The notes beneath the pieces are model-generated. The model was not told where the DNA came from. It searched no databases and saw only the letters and a list, made by a program, of their open reading frames with translations. The position numbers were made by a program, and so were the translations under genes. From Candidatus Vogelbacteria bacterium (lineage in GTDB: Bacteria > Patescibacteriota > Minisyncoccia > Phycocordibacterales > UBA12445), in NCBI GenBank assembly GCA_016201465.1, contig JACQCV010000030.1, positions 1 to 37,486 on the forward strand: 37,486 bases of DNA, written 5' to 3'. Shown here piece by piece: positions 22,577 through 37,486 of the stretch (positions within the stretch are counted from its first letter, which is position 1; every line of letters starts with the position of its first letter).

Positions 22577-25500
22577 TTACTTTTCTGGAACGAGCCAATA
22601 AGAATTTTTTGGTCTTTTCTTAGTCTCTGCTTCAATTTCAGCTCTAACTATCTTATATGCCTGTGCGCGCAATTTGGATTCCGGCTCAACTTCTTCAGAT
22701 AGCATGGACTTTAGAAAAGAGATAATATACCCAACATCACCTTTAAGTTTTTCAGACTTCGAGGCCTTCATATACTCTTCAAGCTCTGGAGCCATGGCGG
22801 CGGCCGCCTGTCTTAGCGCGGCCGTTTTATCCATCCCCTTTTCTAAATTTTCCTCATAATTAAGTCTGGCAAGCTCCGTTGGTAAGACCAACATCTCTCT
22901 GAGTTCAACAATAATCTCATTTATACGATCACGCATCCAAGCGATTCTCGTTTCAAGTGCCGCGTTTGCAAAAGTGTTATCAAAATTATATGCCAAAAGT
23001 TTTTCTCTCTTGTCTTCGTCAATATCTAAAGTCTCAGTGCTGAAATCCTCTATTAGCTTGTCCCAATCAAGCCGGTCCCTCACAAACTTTTTATCATCAT
23101 AGCCACGTGTCTTAACTTTAACAGTTATCAACTTTCCATTCGCATCTCGATACTGCGCCATAAGTCCTTCGAGATTTTCCAAATTGCCCTCCTGCTGCGC
23201 GTATTCATAAATTTGAGCTATGGTCATGCCTTTAAACTTTTCTGTTAAATCCACTGCCGTCCGTGTGCCCATAGATTTAGCCCCGTCTTCGACAGCACTC
23301 CATTCGTCATTAACGCCAGTTTCTTTATCAACCGCGTTAAGAAGAATAAGCGACTTCTCACTACCATAATCAACAATATGTGCTTCGTCCGGTAGAATAA
23401 TTTCAAAAAGATATGTTTTGGATGGATCCATTTTGTCCTTGTTCATCTTATCAAGAAGTTCTTGGGCAGGCTTAGTAAAAGCATCGTTCTCAAAACTAAA
23501 CTTAGTTGATACGCGCCACTTTCCGTTCCAAAAGTAAACAATCCCCATTGAACCATTGGCCTTTTCAAAAACTTTTTCCGGGACAATGTTCAACTCCTCG
23601 AGAGGAATCTCAACCCCGGCCTTATGTGTCTTCTCAAAAGGTCTAGCCACCACAAGACCACCACTATCAATAATCAACCCTCTAAAATGTCTAAGCGTCG
23701 GTAGTTTTTCCCAAAGACCACTCGCATCTGTAGTTCGAGAGTAGTTTATGATTGTTAATCCCGCGTACTCGCCCATCCCTTCCTTTGTTTCGATCATTCC
23801 AAGTTCATCTGAGTATTTTACTAACGCGAGCAAATCAGCGCCACCTGGGAGTGCTCCGCTCTTCATGATTTCATACAGCTTTACCACAGAAGACTCTTCT
23901 GCAGATAAAAACTTGAGTTCGGGATAATACATTCCTTGTAGTACACCACGTAGTGGTGCATCTATGTCAAGCCCAACCGTACCCGAAATCATGTTCACTT
24001 GTGCTGGTGGTTCATCGTGTGTATGTCCACCAACCACCAGTATGCCAGGATCTTTTGCCACAACATTCTTAAGTTTTTCTGTCTGTATCCTACCTCCGGC
24101 AAATTCACCCTTTAATCCATGCACATATCTACTAGAATCTTTATCGATGTCTTTTGCTGAAAGTGGCATTCTTGGTAGTGATGCGTGAACAACTGCCAGA
24201 TTTTTCCATTCCATAAAGGTCGGGGCAACTTCAAGCATTTCAATTATTTTTTGAATTGACCTTTCACCCAATCTCTCCTTAAGCTCTTTAGCGGTTTGAT
24301 TTGTTTCGCGAGAACCGCCACCCAGATTACCCTTCAGCACCTTAAGGAGGTTCTCGTCATGGTTACCCTTTATTAAAACTGCCCTACCCTGCCGGACCAA
24401 CGCCGAAATATATATAACAGCCTCGGCATCGTATGGTCCTCGGTCCCCAATGTCACCAACGAAAACTATTTTTCTTTTCCGATATTCTTTATCGCCATGT
24501 TCTCCTTCAAGGTTTTCGTGTCTAATCTTACCCGTCAATTCTTTGACTGCTGTCACGCATCCATGAACATCACCGACAAGGAAAAGTGGCTCATCTTTGA
24601 GATCACTCTCTCTTTGTATATTGACGAAATCTTTATTTTCAATCGACGCTTGAGACACCGGAAAAATAGAGAGTTTCGTACCCTCTTCAGCGTCTTTAGG
24701 AATCTTCTCTACTCGCTCGATAACTTTGTCAATATTAAATTCCGTGGGATATGAAATAACTGAGGTAAGATTTAGTTTTGAGCGCTCTTTAATGATGTAA
24801 GACACAACGTCACTAACAGTCTGATCTGTAATTTCAGATGAAAGTCTCGTAGCCACAGATCTAACATCAATAACCTGGTGTGACATAAAGTTGTAATCCA
24901 AAAATTCTTTTGTCTTAAACATATCAACGTCTTTAACACGGATCAATGAACCGGCTGGAACGGATAAAACTTCACGAGATTCTAAATTTTCTTTCTTCAG
25001 CAGTCCGATCTCAGCGTAACCAAGAATAGTTTCAGATATCTTGGCCTCTTTCATCAGCTCCTTATCAGCCCCCAGGGAATCCATATACTCATCTGGCAAT
25101 TTGACAGCCACCTGAGATGCCACGTCCGGCTCGACCACATAAACAACTTTAATGTGCTTACTCTTTTCAAGAGCGTTCCTTACTAGCGAGTAACCACTTT
25201 TCTTTGACTTTATATATTCTGCGCCAGCATGCCTCTTCCTATCAGTATCTCTTTGAGCCGCCATCTCAGGGGGCACGTTCAAGAAAATGGTGACTATCTC
25301 TGCACCCGTCTTCTCTGCTATCTCGTAAAATTCGTTTCTCTTTTCCTCCGTTAGACTCTGCGCATCAAGAACAGCAATTTCATTTTGTTTAAGCCTTGTC
25401 TCCGCAATTTTTCGTGCGAGCAAGAAAGCTTTACTAGAAATAACCTGGTTATGAATATTGCCAGTCAGTTCATGTCTTAAACGATCTGTGCTAATTACAG

Positions 25501-25678
25501 AGTCAATAGGGAAATTATTGTATGCAAACGTGCTTTTTCCACTCCCCGGAAGACCCACCAGCAGTACCAAGGTTTTTTTACCAATCTCAATGCTGTTTTG
25601 TGACTCGTTAATCTCTACAATTCTAGGAACCTTATTTTCAACAGTCTTTGACGCAGATATATTTTCTTTATTTTTCAT
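22577..25678 (-). CDS. Polynucleotide kinase - metallophosphatase - Rnl1-like RNA ligase (track ORF begins at TTG 25696; ATG at 25678)
   Basis: GLPGSGKST kinase P-loop; GDVHGC/GDIGDRGPYD/KGNHDE metallophosphatase motifs; ligase EKANGSMG, TYLFEIILPDEAHIVDYGSEKSLILLNAV and VKVKTRGY. Confidence 0.85.
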   Translation of the reverse strand: MKNKENISASKTVENKVPRIVEINESQNSIEIGKKTLVLLVGLPGSGKSTFAYNNFPIDSVISTDRLRHELTGNIHNQVISSKAFLLARKIAETRLKQNEIAVLDAQSLTEEKRNEFYEIAEKTGAEIVTIFLNVPPEMAAQRDTDRKRHAGAEYIKSKKSGYSLVRNALEKSKHIKVVYVVEPDVASQVAVKLPDEYMDSLGADKELMKEAKISETILGYAEIGLLKKENLESREVLSVPAGSLIRVKDVDMFKTKEFLDYNFMSHQVIDVRSVATRLSSEITDQTVSDVVSYIIKERSKLNLTSVISYPTEFNIDKVIERVEKIPKDAEEGTKLSIFPVSQASIENKDFVNIQRESDLKDEPLFLVGDVHGCVTAVKELTGKIRHENLEGEHGDKEYRKRKIVFVGDIGDRGPYDAEAVIYISALVRQGRAVLIKGNHDENLLKVLKGNLGGGSRETNQTAKELKERLGERSIQKIIEMLEVAPTFMEWKNLAVVHASLPRMPLSAKDIDKDSSRYVHGLKGEFAGGRIQTEKLKNVVAKDPGILVVGGHTHDEPPAQVNMISGTVGLDIDAPLRGVLQGMYYPELKFLSAEESSVVKLYEIMKSGALPGGADLLALVKYSDELGMIETKEGMGEYAGLTIINYSRTTDASGLWEKLPTLRHFRGLIIDSGGLVVARPFEKTHKAGVEIPLEELNIVPEKVFEKANGSMGIVYFWNGKWRVSTKFSFENDAFTKPAQELLDKMNKDKMDPSKTYLFEIILPDEAHIVDYGSEKSLILLNAVDKETGVNDEWSAVEDGAKSMGTRTAVDLTEKFKGMTIAQIYEYAQQEGNLENLEGLMAQYRDANGKLITVKVKTRGYDDKKFVRDRLDWDKLIEDFSTETLDIDEDKREKLLAYNFDNTFANAALETRIAWMRDRINEIIVELREMLVLPTELARLNYEENLEKGMDKTAALRQAAAAMAPELEEYMKASKSEKLKGDVGYIISFLKSMLSEEVEPESKLRAQAYKIVRAEIEAETKKRPKNSYWLVPEK

Positions 25679-25695
25679 ATTGATAATTATATACA

Positions 25696-25724
25696 AAAAC
25701 CCCCATCAACAAAAGTTGATGGGG
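25696..25724 (-). terminator. Rho-independent terminator after the HD-hydrolase gene
   Basis: CCCCATCAAC-(4 nt)-GTTGATGGGG, perfect 10-bp stem; minus strand continues GTTTTT. Confidence 0.9.
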
Positions 25725-28847: not shown

Positions 28848-29252
28848 CTAACTCATGATCTCTTTAACAAGTTTATCCAATCCAATTTTCTTCTCCGCTG
28901 AAAATGGAATTACTTTATAATTTGGAAACGTCATTTGAATTTTCTTGAGTTGTTTTATTTTGTCTGATGATCTCAATTTGTCGACTTTATTTGCAATCAC
29001 AATCACATTTTTATTCTCCTTCTCCAAAATTCTCAACATTTCTAGATCGTTAGAGGTTGGGCCCACATAAGCATCTATTATCAAAACAACCTTTTTTTGT
29101 TTATAACCTGAATCTACCAAATACCACTTTGTGAGCTTCAGGATTTTCTCTCTCAGAGCAACTGGCGCCTTGGCATATCCATACCCAGGGTTTTCCAACA
29201 GACTATCTGTTCCAACAACACCCTTTATAAATTTCGCGGACTTGATCTTCAT
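28848..29252 (-). pseudogene. engB: EngB/YihA-like GTPase with internal loss of the G1/G2 region (134 aa; may be a pseudogene)
   Basis: Starts MKIKSAKFIKGVVGTDSLLEN then jumps to PGYGYAKAPVALREK..., NKVDKL, PFSAEKKIGLDKL; no GxxxxGKS P-loop. Confidence 0.7.
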
Positions 29253-29300: not shown

Positions 29301-29360
29301 CTATTTCTTCTTCTTTGGTTTCTTTGTCTCTTTTCTCTGACGATTGTCTCCTTTCCCCAT
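29301..29360 (-). CDS. Very small Lys-rich peptide (19 aa), not in the supplied ORF track
   Basis: MGKGDNRQRKETKKPKKKK*; MGKGD start resembles bTHX-type small basic proteins; sits directly before a terminator. Confidence 0.5.
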   Translation of the reverse strand: MGKGDNRQRKETKKPKKKK

Positions 29361-29405: not shown

Positions 29406-32400
29406 TCAGATTTTCTTCTCCAACTCTTTTATAAGTGCCCCGCGAGCTTGATTCGCTTGTGAGTATTCACTAATATGTTTGAGACAATTTTGCAGAAGAC
29501 TTGGTGATCTATCAAGTAAATCTCTAAAACTTACGCCCGAAACAAATAAGAACGTACTGTTTTCGTTGGCTGTAACAGTACAAATTGCTCCATCATCAAG
29601 AATAAAAGATCTCTCACCAAACAAACCCTGCGTCAACGGAGTATCCAACAAACTTATCGACTCAACATCCCCTTCGCCTTCAGTTTGATTCAGAACAACC
29701 GATCCAGCCAAAAGTATATAGACACCCTCCGATCTCAGTCCTTGTCTTAAAACGACTTCACCCTTACTAAACTTCTTCAATACAGCTCTATCAGCAAAAA
29801 ACAATCGAAGATCTTCAACATCAATACCAATAAAAATTTCAAGCGACCTTAATTGATCTGAAATACCCAACTTCCGTTGAATCAAGATATTAACCAACAG
29901 TCTCTGTAAATCTGGATAATTCTGAGCTAATCTATCTAGGTCGTTCAAACCAATTTTCAATAATCGCGTAGCTGACTCTGCCATCACTGTGGCTGTCCTT
30001 TTTCTATTTTCCTCAAGCATTACAGCCTCTCCAATTACAGCACCCCTCATATCAATTCTACCAATCTCCTTACCGTCAACCAACACTCCGCAGGAACCGT
30101 GTACTAATATAAATAAAGAGTCAGCATTTTCCCCCTTCTTCACAATTGTCTCCCCCTGTTTAAAATCAACCGTAATAATATTTTCTGAAATGATTTGCAG
30201 ATCAGTTACGCTTGGTCTCAAATAATCCAGAAGAGGAATATTTTTTAGATCAAAATTATCACCTATGGGGTAATTCGGAAAGTTACAAAGTCTTGCTATC
30301 TCATCAGTGAGATGCCGAGAAGTCATCCGGCCAGTACGATACTCTTCGGTCAAATAAAATAGCTTGCTATTTAGTTCATTGAGAACCGGTAGGTCCTGAT
30401 TAGTAATCTGGAGTTGATCGTTCCAAAAAGTAAACTCACCCAAATAGCCTTCGGCACTTAGTAAATCCAGAAGTCTAAATAGATCACGTATAAATTTCTT
30501 TACTTTAAACACAAAGTCGTCTTTCTGCCCATAAGTAATAACTGCCGTATCTTTTATAAAAACTTCACCCATATTAATCGTCCCATCTTTAGTTAATGCA
30601 GGATAATATTCTGTGGTCTCATTAATATTTTTAAATGCAACTTTTCGCATAAGTAGCCCGAACGCAGCCTCTTCTCTGCCTGGTAAAGTTAAAAGATTTG
30701 CAAGACTTCTAAATAAAAGTGACATATCCAAGAGACTCGGGTCATCTTCATCTGTTATACCAACAAACAGATCAAGCTCGACCCTCTTTGGACTAATCTT
30801 TTTAGATAATCTTTCGAAGATGGCAGACAACTCTAGTGTTTCATTTAAATATTTTGAGATAGATCTTTCAGAATTAGTTTCTGATATACCCAAAAGTAGT
30901 AGAAAACATTTTGCCAAATGCCGTTCCCTAATTTCAAAAAATCTTTCCTCTATAGCGTCGACGAGAAGCCCCTTAGCCTCAGCGAGTTGCTTAAGAATTA
31001 AAACAAATCCATGACCTTCATAACCAAAAAAGTTTTGGTGATGTTTTGACGCCGCAGTCTTATATGGTCCACGGCACTTGACGAATGACACCGTTTCAAG
31101 ATCTATGATTCTTCCATCAAGAGAGTAGTTACCATTAGACCAAGCGCCGAGCATATAACGATAGGCAAAAAACTCGGCATCCAATTGAGCATATTCGGTC
31201 AAAATTTTATCAAAATCAATTATGATGCTTGGTGAATATTCAACATGACTCGCTCTATCGAGAGCACCATCATCAACCCTCACCAACAAAGTAAGCGGAA
31301 TCGGATTGATGGCCCACTTGAACTGCTTTGACTCCTTCAATGCCAAAACCGCAACGTGATCTATCGCACGCCTACTGAAATGATTAATCCACCTTGCCAA
31401 AACAACACGTCTAAACGACCCGATCATCTCCATCCTACCGGTACTGTGGCTCGGCTTAGTGCTCGTACAAAGCGAGGTTTTTCCAACACCTAAAACATTA
31501 TGATGCTTACCAAAGTAGACAGCACGACCAGATCCCTGATTACCCGACAGGCCGATATCCGTTTTATCTTTTTGTCTGTCTGCAAAAACCGGAATAGTCT
31601 CTGTATTCTGCGGACATTTGTCATCTACTAAAACAATTGCAAACTTTTTAGACTGCCTTTCGGGATCACCACCATATCCTGAACTTGTAAAATATTCTTC
31701 ATTAGAATATACAATCTCAAATTCATCCGATTGTAGCTGTCTTGCTTGATGGGGCACAAAGATCTCGGCACCGAGACGAGAGATTGCATCCGGCTTCTCA
31801 GAGAGATCATTGGTTACAGATTTGAAAGGTCGTCTTGCAACAATCCACCAGTGAGGCTCAGACTTCTGCCCCAAATTTTGTTCAACCAAACTATTAATAT
31901 CAACCAAATAGCTTTCATAATATTCCTTAAGAATTTCCATCGCCATGATCCCGCTATTCTGCCGTTTAGTTAAACCCTTGAGACCGAGCTTACGACTTGG
32001 ATACTGACTTGCAATGAAACAACCAGGTTTCAACTTCTTTATAAACTGCTTCCAGATTAAAATCGTCGCCAATATCCCATGCACATAATCTTTACTACTA
32101 ATAGAATCATAGAACTCTTTCAATTGTGGTGAGAGCTCCATGCCATCTTCCACCTCTAGAGAAAAGAATCTATCTTGACCGCCCTTCATTGCTAAAGCGA
32201 TGGCCATATCATCGAATGGATGGTTCGCCACAAGCGCATCTATTTTTATGGGAATATCTATACCAATCTGAGTGTCTTGCAGAAGTTTTGGAACTACTAA
32301 CACCTTCGCCTTCGGCATTATTTTTTGATACAACTTTTGTATATACTCTGCTGCGGCCTGGTCTTGTTCAATAAGAATTATCGTTCCATGAAATCCCAGG

Positions 32401-32534
32401 AGTGCCAGTCCATCACCAATCTTTTTCTCATATCCAGGCGCGACTTCAACTACAATACCGTCCATAGGAACATGATTGTCATGAAGTAACTTTTGCCATA
32501 TATATGATACAGACTTAATTTCTAAACTCATCAT
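29406..32534 (-). CDS. Multidomain protein: SAM-methyltransferase-like, SelO-like, two cyclic-nucleotide-binding domains (1042 aa)
   Basis: [32 protein letters not shown] and [13 protein letters not shown]; collinear SelO-like motifs in the middle; two cNMP-type barrels ([29 protein letters not shown] and [27 protein letters not shown]). Confidence 0.75.
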   Translation of the reverse strand: [1042 protein letters not shown]

Positions 32535-34984
32535 TAAGGCTGCTGGGGTTGTGCCAAAACCGATTGAGCTAGTGGGGGTAGTGTTTGAGCAAAGTCAGCT
32601 TCAATGAATTCCATCTTGGAGCCGGGGACGAGGGAGCCTTCAATAATTTTTTTAGCAATTGGTTCTTCAACCTGCTCTTGAATCGCACGATTCATTGGAC
32701 GCGCGCCGAAAGTTCGATTATAACCAGCCTCCATGATTTTACCGACGAGCATCGGATTTATTACAAGCCCTATCCCCTTCTCTTGCAATCTCTTGGCTAA
32801 TTTCTTCAACATTAATCCGGTAATCTGCCGTAACTCATCCTGATTAAGAGGGTGAAAGATAACAACGTCGTCAAATCTATTTATAAGTTCTGGTCTATAA
32901 ATTCCGTCTGACACAATCTTGTTTATTATTTCCGTTTTAAACTTCGACGCGTCATCACCTCGTTCTGTAATATCAAAAATCATCTGACTAGCAGCATTTG
33001 ATGTTGCTATGAAAATAATATTCTGAGTCGAAACCTTTTTACCACTCATGTCTGAAAAGAAGCCTTCATCCAAAATTTGTAGAAAAAGATTCAGAACATC
33101 CCTATCTGCCTTTTCAAACTCATCCAAAAGTAGGACGCCGTAAGGATTCTCACGAAGCATATTAGAAAGAACGCCGGGCTTATTATCTTGAAACGATCCG
33201 ATAAGCCTGTTAATTGAATCACCAGCCTGATATTCTGTCATATCAAGCCTTAACATATACTTTTCATCTCCATAGAATATTTGTGCAAGAGCCTTTGCCG
33301 TCTCTGTCTTTCCTACACCTGTTGGTCCCAAAAAAAGAAATGAACCAATCGGTTTTTTAGGATCACGAACACCGGCCCTGGAGCGACGAAGAGCATTACT
33401 CAATGACACAATAGCCTCTCCTTGTCCAACCACCCTTTTATGCAACTCAAACTCCATGTTAAGTAAAGTTTCCTTCTCCTTAGTCTGGATATCTCCGACC
33501 GGAATATTTGTTTTAACTCTAATAAAATCTAAAACCTCTTTCTTGTCAACGACTCCAAGTCCCGCAAACGAGGCATTCGCCGATAGTTCCTGTATTATGC
33601 TGATAGCCTTGCTCGGCATAACACCAGAGGTTATGTAATAAGTCGCTGACCTAATAAGTTCTTTAACCGCCAGGTAGGTAAAGACCAAATGCCGCTCAGC
33701 CTCAACCTCTCGTAAATAATATTCAATAATTTCCAAAGTTTTATTTTCACTCGGTTCTTCCACCATCACTTTCTCAAAGTATTGGCTAAGCGTGGGGTTG
33801 GTTTCAACTCGCTGATGGAACTTGGCCGGATCAGCAGTGGCCATAATCTGAACATTTTTACCGAGGAATGGACCAATCAAACTAGATAACTGTGTACCAA
33901 GAGATTCGGCCGATACCATGAACGACGGGAGATCTTGAATTACAAAAATAATGTTACCGGCATATAAGGACTCATTAAGACATCGTGTCAAATTGTCTTC
34001 AAATTGAGCCTTCTCTTTTGACTCAGAGATTAGTTTATTCCAATCAAGATCAATTACTCTACTATATGCAATATTTGAACTCACCCTGCCACTTTCAATC
34101 TTGCGCACAAAATCTAGTATAACTCCAAATACTCCAACTCCAGGATCACCAACAATAATTACGTTTGCCTCTCTTGATTTCGTAAAAATAATTTCGATCT
34201 GAGTCACCACATCCTCACGAAATGAATGTTCCGATCTTGAACTAAACAACAAAGGATCTAAAGATAAATCCCGACTAAATTTATCAAGAAAAAAAGTTCG
34301 GCCAAACGCCCAATCCTTACCAATTGCCCTGCGCTCGGAGAGATTTTGCCTTGTCCACCACCTCTCTTTATCGGCTAAATATTCGTTCTCAGCTTCGATC
34401 CAATCCAAAATTTCAAACAATTCCTTTTCCCCTATTCCAAAATCAAACAAAAATTTAGCAAAATCTCTATCAGCTCTGAAAATTGCCAAGATGAGATCCT
34501 TAGTAGAAAAGAAATCATCCGGTCCTATCTCTGGTAGTTCAACATCAACGAATTCACTTGTGCGTGAAGCTAAAAAATTAGCTAGCGATATAGGCGGAAC
34601 TCCAGCGCGCAACAAAAATTGCGTACCAAGTGGAATTGAAAAAAGTGAGGTTGTTAAATCGCCATTTTTTGCCTGATAAATGATTCTGCCGGCACCCAAC
34701 TCTGATTCCGTAATTCCAAAATAATAGTAAGACCGAAAGAAGATCTCACAGAGTAGTGTAATTATCGAAAAACCAATTAGAATCAAAGACAAACCAAGCA
34801 AATTTACCAGAATTGGAATATGCTGGTTGTATAATTTACTGATGTAAAGTCCGACCAAAAAAATAACAACGACATACCGACTAAGCTTGAGAATCCTGCG
34901 CCTCGCCGTGCGAGAGAAAAAATACTCAAGAATCAACACTGGGTAAAAACGTATATTTGTTTTTTTGAACTCACTTAATTTCAT
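32534..34984 (-). CDS. Membrane-anchored Clp-like AAA+ protein with degenerate D1 and intact D2 (816 aa)
   Basis: N-terminal TM segments; D2 FLFLGPTGVGKTETAKALAQIFYG and GVLLLDEFEKA; D1 IIVGDPGVGVFGVI lacks the Walker Lys/Thr. Confidence 0.9.
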   Translation of the reverse strand: MKLSEFKKTNIRFYPVLILEYFFSRTARRRILKLSRYVVVIFLVGLYISKLYNQHIPILVNLLGLSLILIGFSIITLLCEIFFRSYYYFGITESELGAGRIIYQAKNGDLTTSLFSIPLGTQFLLRAGVPPISLANFLASRTSEFVDVELPEIGPDDFFSTKDLILAIFRADRDFAKFLFDFGIGEKELFEILDWIEAENEYLADKERWWTRQNLSERRAIGKDWAFGRTFFLDKFSRDLSLDPLLFSSRSEHSFREDVVTQIEIIFTKSREANVIIVGDPGVGVFGVILDFVRKIESGRVSSNIAYSRVIDLDWNKLISESKEKAQFEDNLTRCLNESLYAGNIIFVIQDLPSFMVSAESLGTQLSSLIGPFLGKNVQIMATADPAKFHQRVETNPTLSQYFEKVMVEEPSENKTLEIIEYYLREVEAERHLVFTYLAVKELIRSATYYITSGVMPSKAISIIQELSANASFAGLGVVDKKEVLDFIRVKTNIPVGDIQTKEKETLLNMEFELHKRVVGQGEAIVSLSNALRRSRAGVRDPKKPIGSFLFLGPTGVGKTETAKALAQIFYGDEKYMLRLDMTEYQAGDSINRLIGSFQDNKPGVLSNMLRENPYGVLLLDEFEKADRDVLNLFLQILDEGFFSDMSGKKVSTQNIIFIATSNAASQMIFDITERGDDASKFKTEIINKIVSDGIYRPELINRFDDVVIFHPLNQDELRQITGLMLKKLAKRLQEKGIGLVINPMLVGKIMEAGYNRTFGARPMNRAIQEQVEEPIAKKIIEGSLVPGSKMEFIEADFAQTLPPLAQSVLAQPQQP

Positions 34985-35429: not shown

Positions 35430-37486
35430 TCACTCACCAGACTCTTCAACAAGACTTGGCTGAAAGTAATTATTTTGAGAAACCTGACTCTGGTTTACTT
35501 CTAGTAAGTTTGTTTTATCCAAAATTATTTCAAGCACGTCACCGGTCATAGTCTCCTTTGAAAACGGTTGGTCAAATATGAAATTGCCTAGACTATAATC
35601 GATAACTCCACCCTTGTACTTTTCCACCTCCTCGGCTACGTGTGGATGGTGACCAATAATGATCCTAGCCCCAGCATCAATTGCTGCATGCGCTAATTCG
35701 CGTTGTCTTTGTGTTGCTTCTGGCTGATACTCCTCTCCAAAATGAATGGAAACCACTAAATGATCAACCTTCTTCGCTGCGTCATTTATTATTTTTTTAA
35801 ACTGTGGATCGCTCGCAGACAAGATCGAGGGTAAATTTTCCTTCTCGGATAACCAGCTTGGTCCCACATCTGAAAATCCAAGAAAACCTATCTTGATCCC
35901 GTTCCTCTCAATAACCTTTACAGTTCTGGCATCGACACCATTGTATCCACCACCAACAGCCAAGATGCCACTGTCTTTTAATCTATTTAATGTGTCTTCA
36001 AAGGCGCTTAAACCCCAATCCCCAATATGATTGTTTGCGACAGATAATGCATCAAAACCAGCGAGAGACAGCGCAGATATAACTCTAGGGTCCATTCGAA
36101 ATGAATACAGATTTTTCATATCGTAACCAACGTTCGACACAGGTCCCTCCAAATTTCCAAAGAGTATGTCAGGATCCTTTAAAAAAGGAACAAACTCAAA
36201 CGGAAAAGAAAAGTCCCCACCACCATGTCTATCTATCATTTGTCTAACCCCACGATCCATCATTATGTCCCCAACAAACATTAGTGATATATTCTTTTCC
36301 GGTTCAATGGTAGTTGTCTCGAATTTTCTTCGATTTAAAACGGTTTCAAATTTAGTCCCATCCTTATATTTAAGAGCGCTAATTATAGCATTCATTATCT
36401 TGTCGACGTCTCCATTTCTATCGCTACTTTTAAGTATGGCGACCGAAAACTTCTTATGATCGAATTCTGTAAGTGGTATAGAAAAAGCACCCGCAAATGT
36501 CTGAAGTGCATCACTAGTAAAACCGTCTTTGCCTCCAATATAATATCTATTATTCTCTCTTACTAAGCGGTTTCTGTTTAGCCAGAGATGGTTTTTTGAC
36601 AAAGAGCCACCCAACACCTTGTAGGATTGTTTGGTCAAGATCAATACTATGTCACTTCTATTCTCTTCAATATACGCAATCAACCTATAAAGATCTTCGG
36701 GCGTTGAGGTATTTAATTTTGACAGCCCACTTGGGTCACTAAATTTAGTATTAAGCATTCCAATATCCCTAACCTTGCTATTCATAAGTGTTATAAATTT
36801 GTTTCGACCAATTCTCTCAGCAAACGCTTCGGCGGCATCGTTACTTGACTCAAGTAGCAGACAATTTAAAAGATCGGTGACTTTAAACTTTTCACCCACC
36901 GACAAGTTGCCCTGGTGTCCATAAGTATTCACAGATTGTTTTGAAATCTGAACAATATCATCCCCGTATAAACTGTCAGTCACGACCATCGCAGTAATTA
37001 ATTTAGATACGGACGCAATCGGAAATTCCCTAATACCACCCCGAGAAACTATATTTAACCCAGAGTCAAGGTCGTTCACGGAGTAGGCTTTCGCTTTCAC
37101 CGATAAACTTATTTTTTGAAAATCATTTGATAACTTGGGATTTAAAAACCCGAGAAATTCCTGGTCTTTCAAGGTAAGTGCATCAACTGATGTCGGAGAA
37201 CTAACCACAACTCTTGTTGAAAGATTAGAGAATTCAAAAGTTTTTTCCGCATCGGTATTATTTAACCTTACCGAGTAGACCAGTTCTGGGTCCGGTAGGT
37301 TGTTTTTTCCAAGCGGTGTACCGTGAATAAAATAATTACCTGCAAACGCGACAGAATAAGGTAATACCACGCCAAGTAAATTTGATCTATGCTCGATCTC
37401 TTTTGCCATAACCGTATATTCACCAGCAACAAGCATTGACGCACTCTTATCATCTCCTAGTGATACCACATTGAAGGAATCAGTCA
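35430..37486 (-). CDS. Fusion: degenerate L,D-transpeptidase-like region, D-Ala-D-Ala carboxypeptidase (DacA-like), CapA-like metallophosphatase; 5' end outside window
   Basis: NYFIHGTPLG...LVYSVRL (YkuD-like); ASVSKLITAM (SxxK), SSNDAAEAFAE (SxN), GGKDGFTS; FVGDIMMDRGVR, GNLEGPVS, ANNHIGDWG, HFGEEY, GHHPH. Frame is open to the window edge. Confidence 0.82.
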   Translation of the reverse strand, partial: TDSFNVVSLGDDKSASMLVAGEYTVMAKEIEHRSNLLGVVLPYSVAFAGNYFIHGTPLGKNNLPDPELVYSVRLNNTDAEKTFEFSNLSTRVVVSSPTSVDALTLKDQEFLGFLNPKLSNDFQKISLSVKAKAYSVNDLDSGLNIVSRGGIREFPIASVSKLITAMVVTDSLYGDDIVQISKQSVNTYGHQGNLSVGEKFKVTDLLNCLLLESSNDAAEAFAERIGRNKFITLMNSKVRDIGMLNTKFSDPSGLSKLNTSTPEDLYRLIAYIEENRSDIVLILTKQSYKVLGGSLSKNHLWLNRNRLVRENNRYYIGGKDGFTSDALQTFAGAFSIPLTEFDHKKFSVAILKSSDRNGDVDKIMNAIISALKYKDGTKFETVLNRRKFETTTIEPEKNISLMFVGDIMMDRGVRQMIDRHGGGDFSFPFEFVPFLKDPDILFGNLEGPVSNVGYDMKNLYSFRMDPRVISALSLAGFDALSVANNHIGDWGLSAFEDTLNRLKDSGILAVGGGYNGVDARTVKVIERNGIKIGFLGFSDVGPSWLSEKENLPSILSASDPQFKKIINDAAKKVDHLVVSIHFGEEYQPEATQRQRELAHAAIDAGARIIIGHHPHVAEEVEKYKGGVIDYSLGNFIFDQPFSKETMTGDVLEIILDKTNLLEVNQSQVSQNNYFQPSLVEESGE

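Follow-up and report, generated by a model that had tools for sequence, protein, structure and literature searches.

The window, a stretch of 37,486 nucleotides from a Candidatus Vogelbacteria bacterium, encodes a 1042-aa protein that joins a putative methyltransferase (MTase), a region supported by sequence profiles as a remote homologue of the pseudokinase SelO, and two cyclic-nucleotide-binding (cNMP) domains. This architecture is new and the family was previously unnamed. The fusion family is rare, but not a one-off. In an initial sequence-only reading of the window, no MTase/SelO/cNMP fusion was known to have been described, and in the open-licence literature no paper was found that holds all three terms. 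The coordinates of the features are collected in Table 1.

The known chemistry of SelO, a conserved pseudokinase, continues to grow and now comprises AMPylation, UMPylation and NAD hydrolysis. A divergent branch that consistently loses the Lys-Glu pair and the Asp, yet keeps the metal site and the arginines, would bear on how far the SelO site can be rebuilt. Fusion to a cNMP sensor would provide an allosteric handle that is absent from SelO itself, and the linked cassette hints at specialised small-molecule chemistry in Patescibacteria, a group commonly considered minimal in metabolism.

Table 1. Features of the fusion gene, its upstream neighbour and the related cassettes
Feature	Position	Strand	Basis or remark
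MTase / SelO-like / tandem cNMP-binding fusion gene, 1042 aa	29406..32534	-	uninterrupted ORF; four full-length or near full-length relatives
Predicted class I SAM-methyltransferase-fold domain, residues 1-235	31830..32534	-	AlphaFold, Foldseek, stand-alone homologues
Divergent SelO-like (kinase-fold) domain, about residues 245-605	30720..31802	-	hhalign; conserved columns
GSGR337, counterpart of SelO GDGR loop	31524..31535	-	invariant in 5/5 members
Metal-site segment N469...D478	31101..31130	-	preceding residue G/S where SelO has Asp
Helical extension, residues 606-775	30210..30719	-	family alignment; helices in AlphaFold model
cNMP-binding domain 1, canonical phosphate cassette GE...R-T-A	29916..30170	-	PF00027
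cNMP-binding domain 2, cassette Glu kept, Arg missing (GE...GAICTV)	29508..29777	-	PF00027
ClpA/ClpB-like AAA+ protein, N-terminal hydrophobic stretch	32534..34984	-	upstream of fusion gene
Cassette, contig C23 of the window's genome	L006 13089-18193
Cassette, Harrisonbacteria	L046 4781-10229
Cassette, Yanofskybacteria	L047 5027-10316
Cassette, Sungbacteria	L048 1805-8699
Cassette, Sungbacteria	L049 1691-4722

The fusion gene

The ORF at 29406-32534, for which the sequence-only reading gave no strand, is present and uninterrupted on the minus strand, and the plus strand over the same positions contains 53 stops. Since the relatives begin at the same residue, the start is correct. The ATG shares one base with the stop of the upstream ClpA-like gene and, therefore, the two genes are probably carried on one transcript and translated together. 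The base composition and third-position GC of the fusion gene agree with those of the neighbouring genes. Neither the other genome of the same genus nor three genomes of the same family contain the fusion gene; in relatives, the ClpA-like gene is followed by a tRNA-dihydrouridine-synthase-like gene in place of the fusion.

Relatives and distribution

When the genome collection was scanned with patterns shared by the window protein and a paralogue that contig C23 of its own genome encodes, six loci were returned (L044-L049); the scan is limited by these patterns, and other relatives may exist. Four of the loci encode fusion relatives that are 47-54% identical to the window protein. One, from a MAG (L044, 54% identical), is full length and has two cNMP domains, while that from Omnitrophota (L045, 49% identical) has one. 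The relatives from Harrisonbacteria (L046) and Yanofskybacteria (L047) are MTase-SelO proteins without cNMP domains, so that three of the five family members (the window protein, L044 and L045) carry this sensor. The remaining two loci, both from Sungbacteria (L048 and L049), encode the MTase alone. An earlier scan with patterns from the single window protein found no relatives, because those patterns are not conserved. Weak matches at L005 and L011-L021, which were inspected in part, were set aside as chance or as rRNA dimethylase-like MTases (L014 and L016).

Beyond the known carrier genomes, no full relative was found among 380 Patescibacteria, 297 genomes of the order and 334 Omnitrophota (drawn evenly), nor were any relatives found in phage, plasmid and viral contig collections. 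The patchy distribution of the fusion family suggests horizontal transfer. In the tree, the three cNMP-carrying members group together, with a support of 88/98 that is not decisive. From this grouping, a single acquisition of the cNMP sensor, with later movement of the gene between phyla, is probable.

The Omnitrophota ORF (L045 1005-13220) spans 4071 aa, has a signal-peptide-like start and contains nine RSE[MV]R motifs resembling module borders, with the MTase-SelO-cNMP module placed between two of them. A literature search on border motifs of this type found no paper.

Kinship of the middle domain to SelO

In the sequence-only reading, motifs of the middle region had been paired by eye with those of SelO. 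All of these pairs are present and collinear, and the match extends further than was first proposed, to about residue 270 N-terminally and about residue 610 C-terminally. Remote homology to SelO is supported by profile-profile alignment. When the five-member family was compared by hhalign with a profile of 11 SelO proteins (E. coli SelO and ten plasmid-borne bacterial and archaeal SelO proteins), the score was 53.6 over 299 columns, with a probability of 86% and an E of 5e-6 that refers to one comparison rather than to a library; none of 60 column-shuffled versions scored above 23.9. In a second set-up, the score was 43.9 and the highest shuffle score 33.3. Of the 40 SelO-invariant columns, 15 keep their SelO residue in each of the five members in this second set-up; among 80 shuffles the count never exceeded three, and the reversed alignment and unrelated real families gave 0-1. 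Aminoglycoside phosphotransferases, which have the kinase fold, scored 14-19, that is, at background. Thus, the predicted kinship is with SelO specifically rather than with kinase folds at large, and aminoglycoside phosphotransferase was ruled out as the nearest kinase-fold kin.

Single-sequence tests are too weak, and it is only by the five-member profile that the predicted kinship is settled. An HMM comparison against P0001 gave a weak E of 0.009, for one sequence, and the single window protein, aligned by hhalign with the SelO profile, was collinear and scored 33.6, while the highest-scoring of 100 shuffles reached 26.7. The SelO profile PF02696 matched none of the five members at E<=10 and nothing in the window's own genome, and no SelO sequence came up when the middle region was used for a profile search of the PDB. 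SelO has a kinase-like fold with a flipped nucleotide. An AlphaFold model of this region, the kind of check proposed in the sequence-only reading, was made from five sequences only and is of low confidence (pLDDT 60), and its Foldseek matches, none of them SelO, are meaningless. A Walker-A reading of VLGVGKT was dropped, as the first Gly of GxxxxGK[ST] is absent.

In P. syringae SelO, the gamma-phosphate is held by Lys113, Glu136, Arg176 and Arg183, and the metal ligands are Asn253 and Asp262 (PMC8097203). The counterparts of both metal ligands, N469 and D478, are invariant in all five members, in agreement with the claim that the metal-site Asn and Asp are kept, and R419 and R427, which correspond to Arg176 and Arg183, are likewise invariant across the family. 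The other kept SelO-invariant residues are G334, G336, R337, G349, G351, T353, G366, R375, G463, G474 and F484 (window numbering). The Lys, Glu and Asp of the site have been replaced. At position 348, the SelO Lys (K107 in E. coli, K113 in P. syringae) has become L, M or I in all five members, and Glu136 has become R376, again in 5/5. The Asp before the metal Asn (Asp252) is G468 in the window protein and G or S across the family. The last two changes had been read correctly from the window protein, as a Glu of IRE turned to Arg and a catalytic Asp turned to Gly; the loss of the Lys and the retention of R337, R419 and R427 are additional observations. With the Lys-Glu pair and the Asp substituted throughout the family, there is more reason to suspect, as that reading did, an inactive or altered domain. 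Residues that are invariant and specific to the family include K352, R376, H430 and E432. The C-terminal Cys-Ser-Ser tail of SelO, which is required for NADase activity (PMC13391479), is absent from all five member sequences.

Compared with SelO/YdiU (PF02696; PDB 6EAC, 6III, 6K20 and 9JYM), the middle domain is collinear over about 300 columns and shares the GxGR loop, GxGxT, the phosphate-binding arginines, the N...D metal site and the subsequent helices. It differs in the replaced counterparts of Lys113, Glu136 and Asp252, in having no Cys-Ser-Ser tail, and in its fusion to MTase and cNMP domains. Because it is missed by PF02696 and lacks both the Lys-Glu pair and the tail, the domain is not SelO by strict membership, but would be a SelO-related branch in a new architecture. 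Residues 606-775 are conserved across the family, and the part of this helical extension nearest the SelO-like core may be the counterpart of the SelO C-terminal region.

The methyltransferase-fold and cNMP-binding domains

The MTase-like domain, previously proposed from the sequence, is borne out by structure prediction. The AlphaFold model of residues 1-243, aligned with seven relatives, has a pLDDT of 87 and a pTM of 0.86, and in Foldseek it matches class I SAM methyltransferases with a probability of 1.00. The model assigns residues 1-235 to this fold, with putative methyl transfer. No Pfam or NCBIfam methyltransferase family matched the domain, whose motifs are EVAPGYExKIG, IExD, HPFDDM and QYPS...KRQNSG. 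By model and Foldseek, it has the Rossmann MTase fold of class I SAM methyltransferases, with the motif I and acidic motif II positions present, but differs from them in an atypical motif I (EVAPGYExKI) and in the HPFDD motif. Sungbacteria encode stand-alone homologues, as does contig C23 of the window's own genome. A distant relative of the domain occurs in another Patescibacteria family (L004 1294-3311), where a radical-SAM-like gene directly follows.

The tandem cNMP domains were recovered by PF00027 (E=5e-29; 100.5 bits against a cut-off of 27.5), and Pfam found nothing else on the window protein. The best PDB sequence matches of the region are to Plasmodium PKG (E 1e-18), and the complete GE...RTA cassette is the form found in PKG. 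The protein resembles other PF00027 proteins (Plasmodium PKG, the PKA regulatory subunit, CRP and PycTIR) in its tandem CNB domains and in the canonical cassette of the first. Unlike them, it has MTase-SelO as its effector part, in place of a kinase, DNA-binding or TIR domain, and its second CNB has no cassette Arg. The suggestion of c-di-AMP as an alternative ligand found no support.

A conserved cassette around the methyltransferase

In L046, L047, L048, L049 and C23, the gene order is a TrmB-type regulator (divergent), a P-loop kinase, a Gfo/Idh oxidoreductase and then the MTase. The kinase, which was not seen in L049, is similar to archaeal adenylate kinase, and the Gfo/Idh protein (477 aa) is 65-77% identical between loci. 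The terminal MTase is SelO-fused in L046 and L047 and stands alone in L048, L049 and C23. Thus, two versions occur in the window's genome: the MTase by itself within the cassette, and the MTase-SelO-cNMP protein elsewhere. Five of the seven genomes with this MTase family carry the Gfo/Idh gene, compared with two of 297 order genomes, the window's own being one of those two. None of the cNMP-carrying fusions adjoins a Gfo/Idh gene, and two of their three genomes (draft MAGs) are without one. An ABC-F ATPase of the ribosome-protection kind, from a single subfamily (60-64% identical), adjoins the L044 fusion and lies near the cassette in C23 and L048; this may simply be a common Patescibacteria gene.

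Distant relatives of the Gfo/Idh gene are found in Streptomyces plasmid clusters together with aminoglycoside-phosphotransferase-type kinases, GNAT, a PIG-L deacetylase and oxidoreductases, and these clusters look like carbohydrate-type specialised metabolism. Another distant relative, in a Patescibacteria locus (L070), is accompanied by a methyltransferase, a kinase, glycosyltransferases and an ABC-F-like gene, as judged by eye. The TrmB/kinase/Gfo/Idh/MTase cassette is possibly a small-molecule tailoring locus in Patescibacteria.

One cluster is common to Streptomyces and Embleya plasmids (L059, L060, L061 and L063), in the order citrate-lyase-like, MaoC, GNAT, phosphotransferase, Ldh, LLM, Gfo/Idh, phosphotransferase and PIG-L. 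In Harrisonbacteria, a 387-aa protein (L046 3599-4762) is seemingly a P-loop kinase joined to a CYTH-like domain.

Possible functions of the fusion

It is tempting to propose, though tentatively and well short of conviction, that the fusion serves a small-molecule cassette as a cNMP-gated enzyme of tailoring or nucleotidyl transfer. It would be a three-module cytosolic enzyme of a rare family: a SAM-methyltransferase fold, as given by the model and fold match; a SelO-derived kinase fold which, on profile alignment, keeps the metal ligands and phosphate arginines and has its Lys/Glu/Asp part rebuilt; and a predicted tandem cNMP sensor with the ligand cassette in its first domain and no Arg in the second. 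The first two modules may act on one small molecule, by methylation and by a Mg-nucleotide-dependent transfer such as adenylylation or phosphorylation. The fusion would then be the last enzyme of a tailoring cassette with the Gfo/Idh oxidoreductase and the adenylate-kinase-like P-loop enzyme, and a cNMP at the first sensor would switch activity in the sensor-carrying sub-family, the window protein included. In favour of this proposal are the domain assignments, the linkage to the cassette and its Gfo/Idh gene, the ABC-F gene nearby, the setting of the distant Gfo/Idh relatives, and the invariant metal ligands and three arginines; against it stand the missing Lys-Glu pair and Asp, and the separation of the cNMP-carrying fusions from the Gfo/Idh gene. 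The broader claim that these proteins form a new enzyme family, in which a fold derived from SelO was rebuilt to nucleotidylate or phosphorylate small molecules and works with a fused MTase in a tailoring cassette, with cNMP gating in one sub-family, is rather unlikely. If true, it would give ultra-small Patescibacteria a cNMP-controlled enzyme of specialised metabolism.

The main rival, itself a doubtful but serious possibility, is that the SelO-like domain is a dead pseudoenzyme, a nucleotide-sensing or structural scaffold, and that the MTase is the sole active part. The Lys, Glu and Asp counterparts are lost in all five members, and other genomes do without the SelO-like part, having the MTase alone at the same cassette position. 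Against this, N469, D478, R337, R419 and R427 are strictly kept, as are many family-specific residues such as K352 and H430; metal ligands and three arginines that stay invariant in relatives about 50% identical and drawn from at least two phyla would be surprising in a pseudoenzyme undergoing decay. The same retained metal and phosphate residues, with the collinear homology, would also suit a SelO/YdiU-style protein AMPylase or UMPylase with added cNMP control. Such an enzyme is improbable, since all three counterparts of K113, E136 and D252 are replaced, no member has the tail, and a SelO-type target is not indicated.

Two further explanations are very improbable. In a Pycsar-like anti-phage effector, the cNMP domain would sense cCMP or cUMP and switch on a toxic MTase/SelO part. 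The first cNMP domain does match PADLOC models of PycTIR and related TIR effectors (E 2.6e-24, over the cNMP domain only), and like Pycsar effectors the protein joins such a domain to an enzyme part, but this part is unrelated to TIR or membrane effectors. No cyclase family matched among the nine window proteins scanned (22.6-37.5 kb), and none was recognised by eye among the translated ORFs around L044; the Pycsar assignment was dropped for want of this partner. The probable co-transcription with a ClpA-like gene that is conserved in relatives, the two relatives without cNMP domains, and the lack of members in phage, plasmid or viral collections also argue against it. The other, an effector module that is secreted or directed at a partner and exchanged between episymbiotic Patescibacteria and Omnitrophota, is scarcely to be expected either. 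It would account for the patchy distribution and for the Omnitrophota module as a segment between RSEMR motifs behind a signal-peptide-like N-terminus. However, the window protein and L044 begin directly at the MTase domain with no export signal, and the base composition is native to the genome.

Other genes near the fusion

Directly downstream of the fusion gene lies an EngB-like GTPase fragment of 134 aa without the P-loop part (28848-29252, minus strand). Between the two is a lysine-rich tiny ORF, MGKGDNRQRKETKKPKKKK (29301-29360, minus strand), followed by a hairpin and T-run. A 1039-aa protein (22577-25696, minus strand) combines P-loop kinase with metallophosphatase domains; its C-terminal KANGSMG is similar to an RNA-ligase motif, and the protein is reminiscent of Pnkp RNA repair proteins. 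At 35430-37469 (minus strand), an S11 D-Ala-D-Ala carboxypeptidase is fused to a PGA_cap metallophosphatase domain. The ClpA-like gene of the other genome in the genus (L032 6771-7436) has lost the AAA modules and retains just the N-terminal 221 aa.
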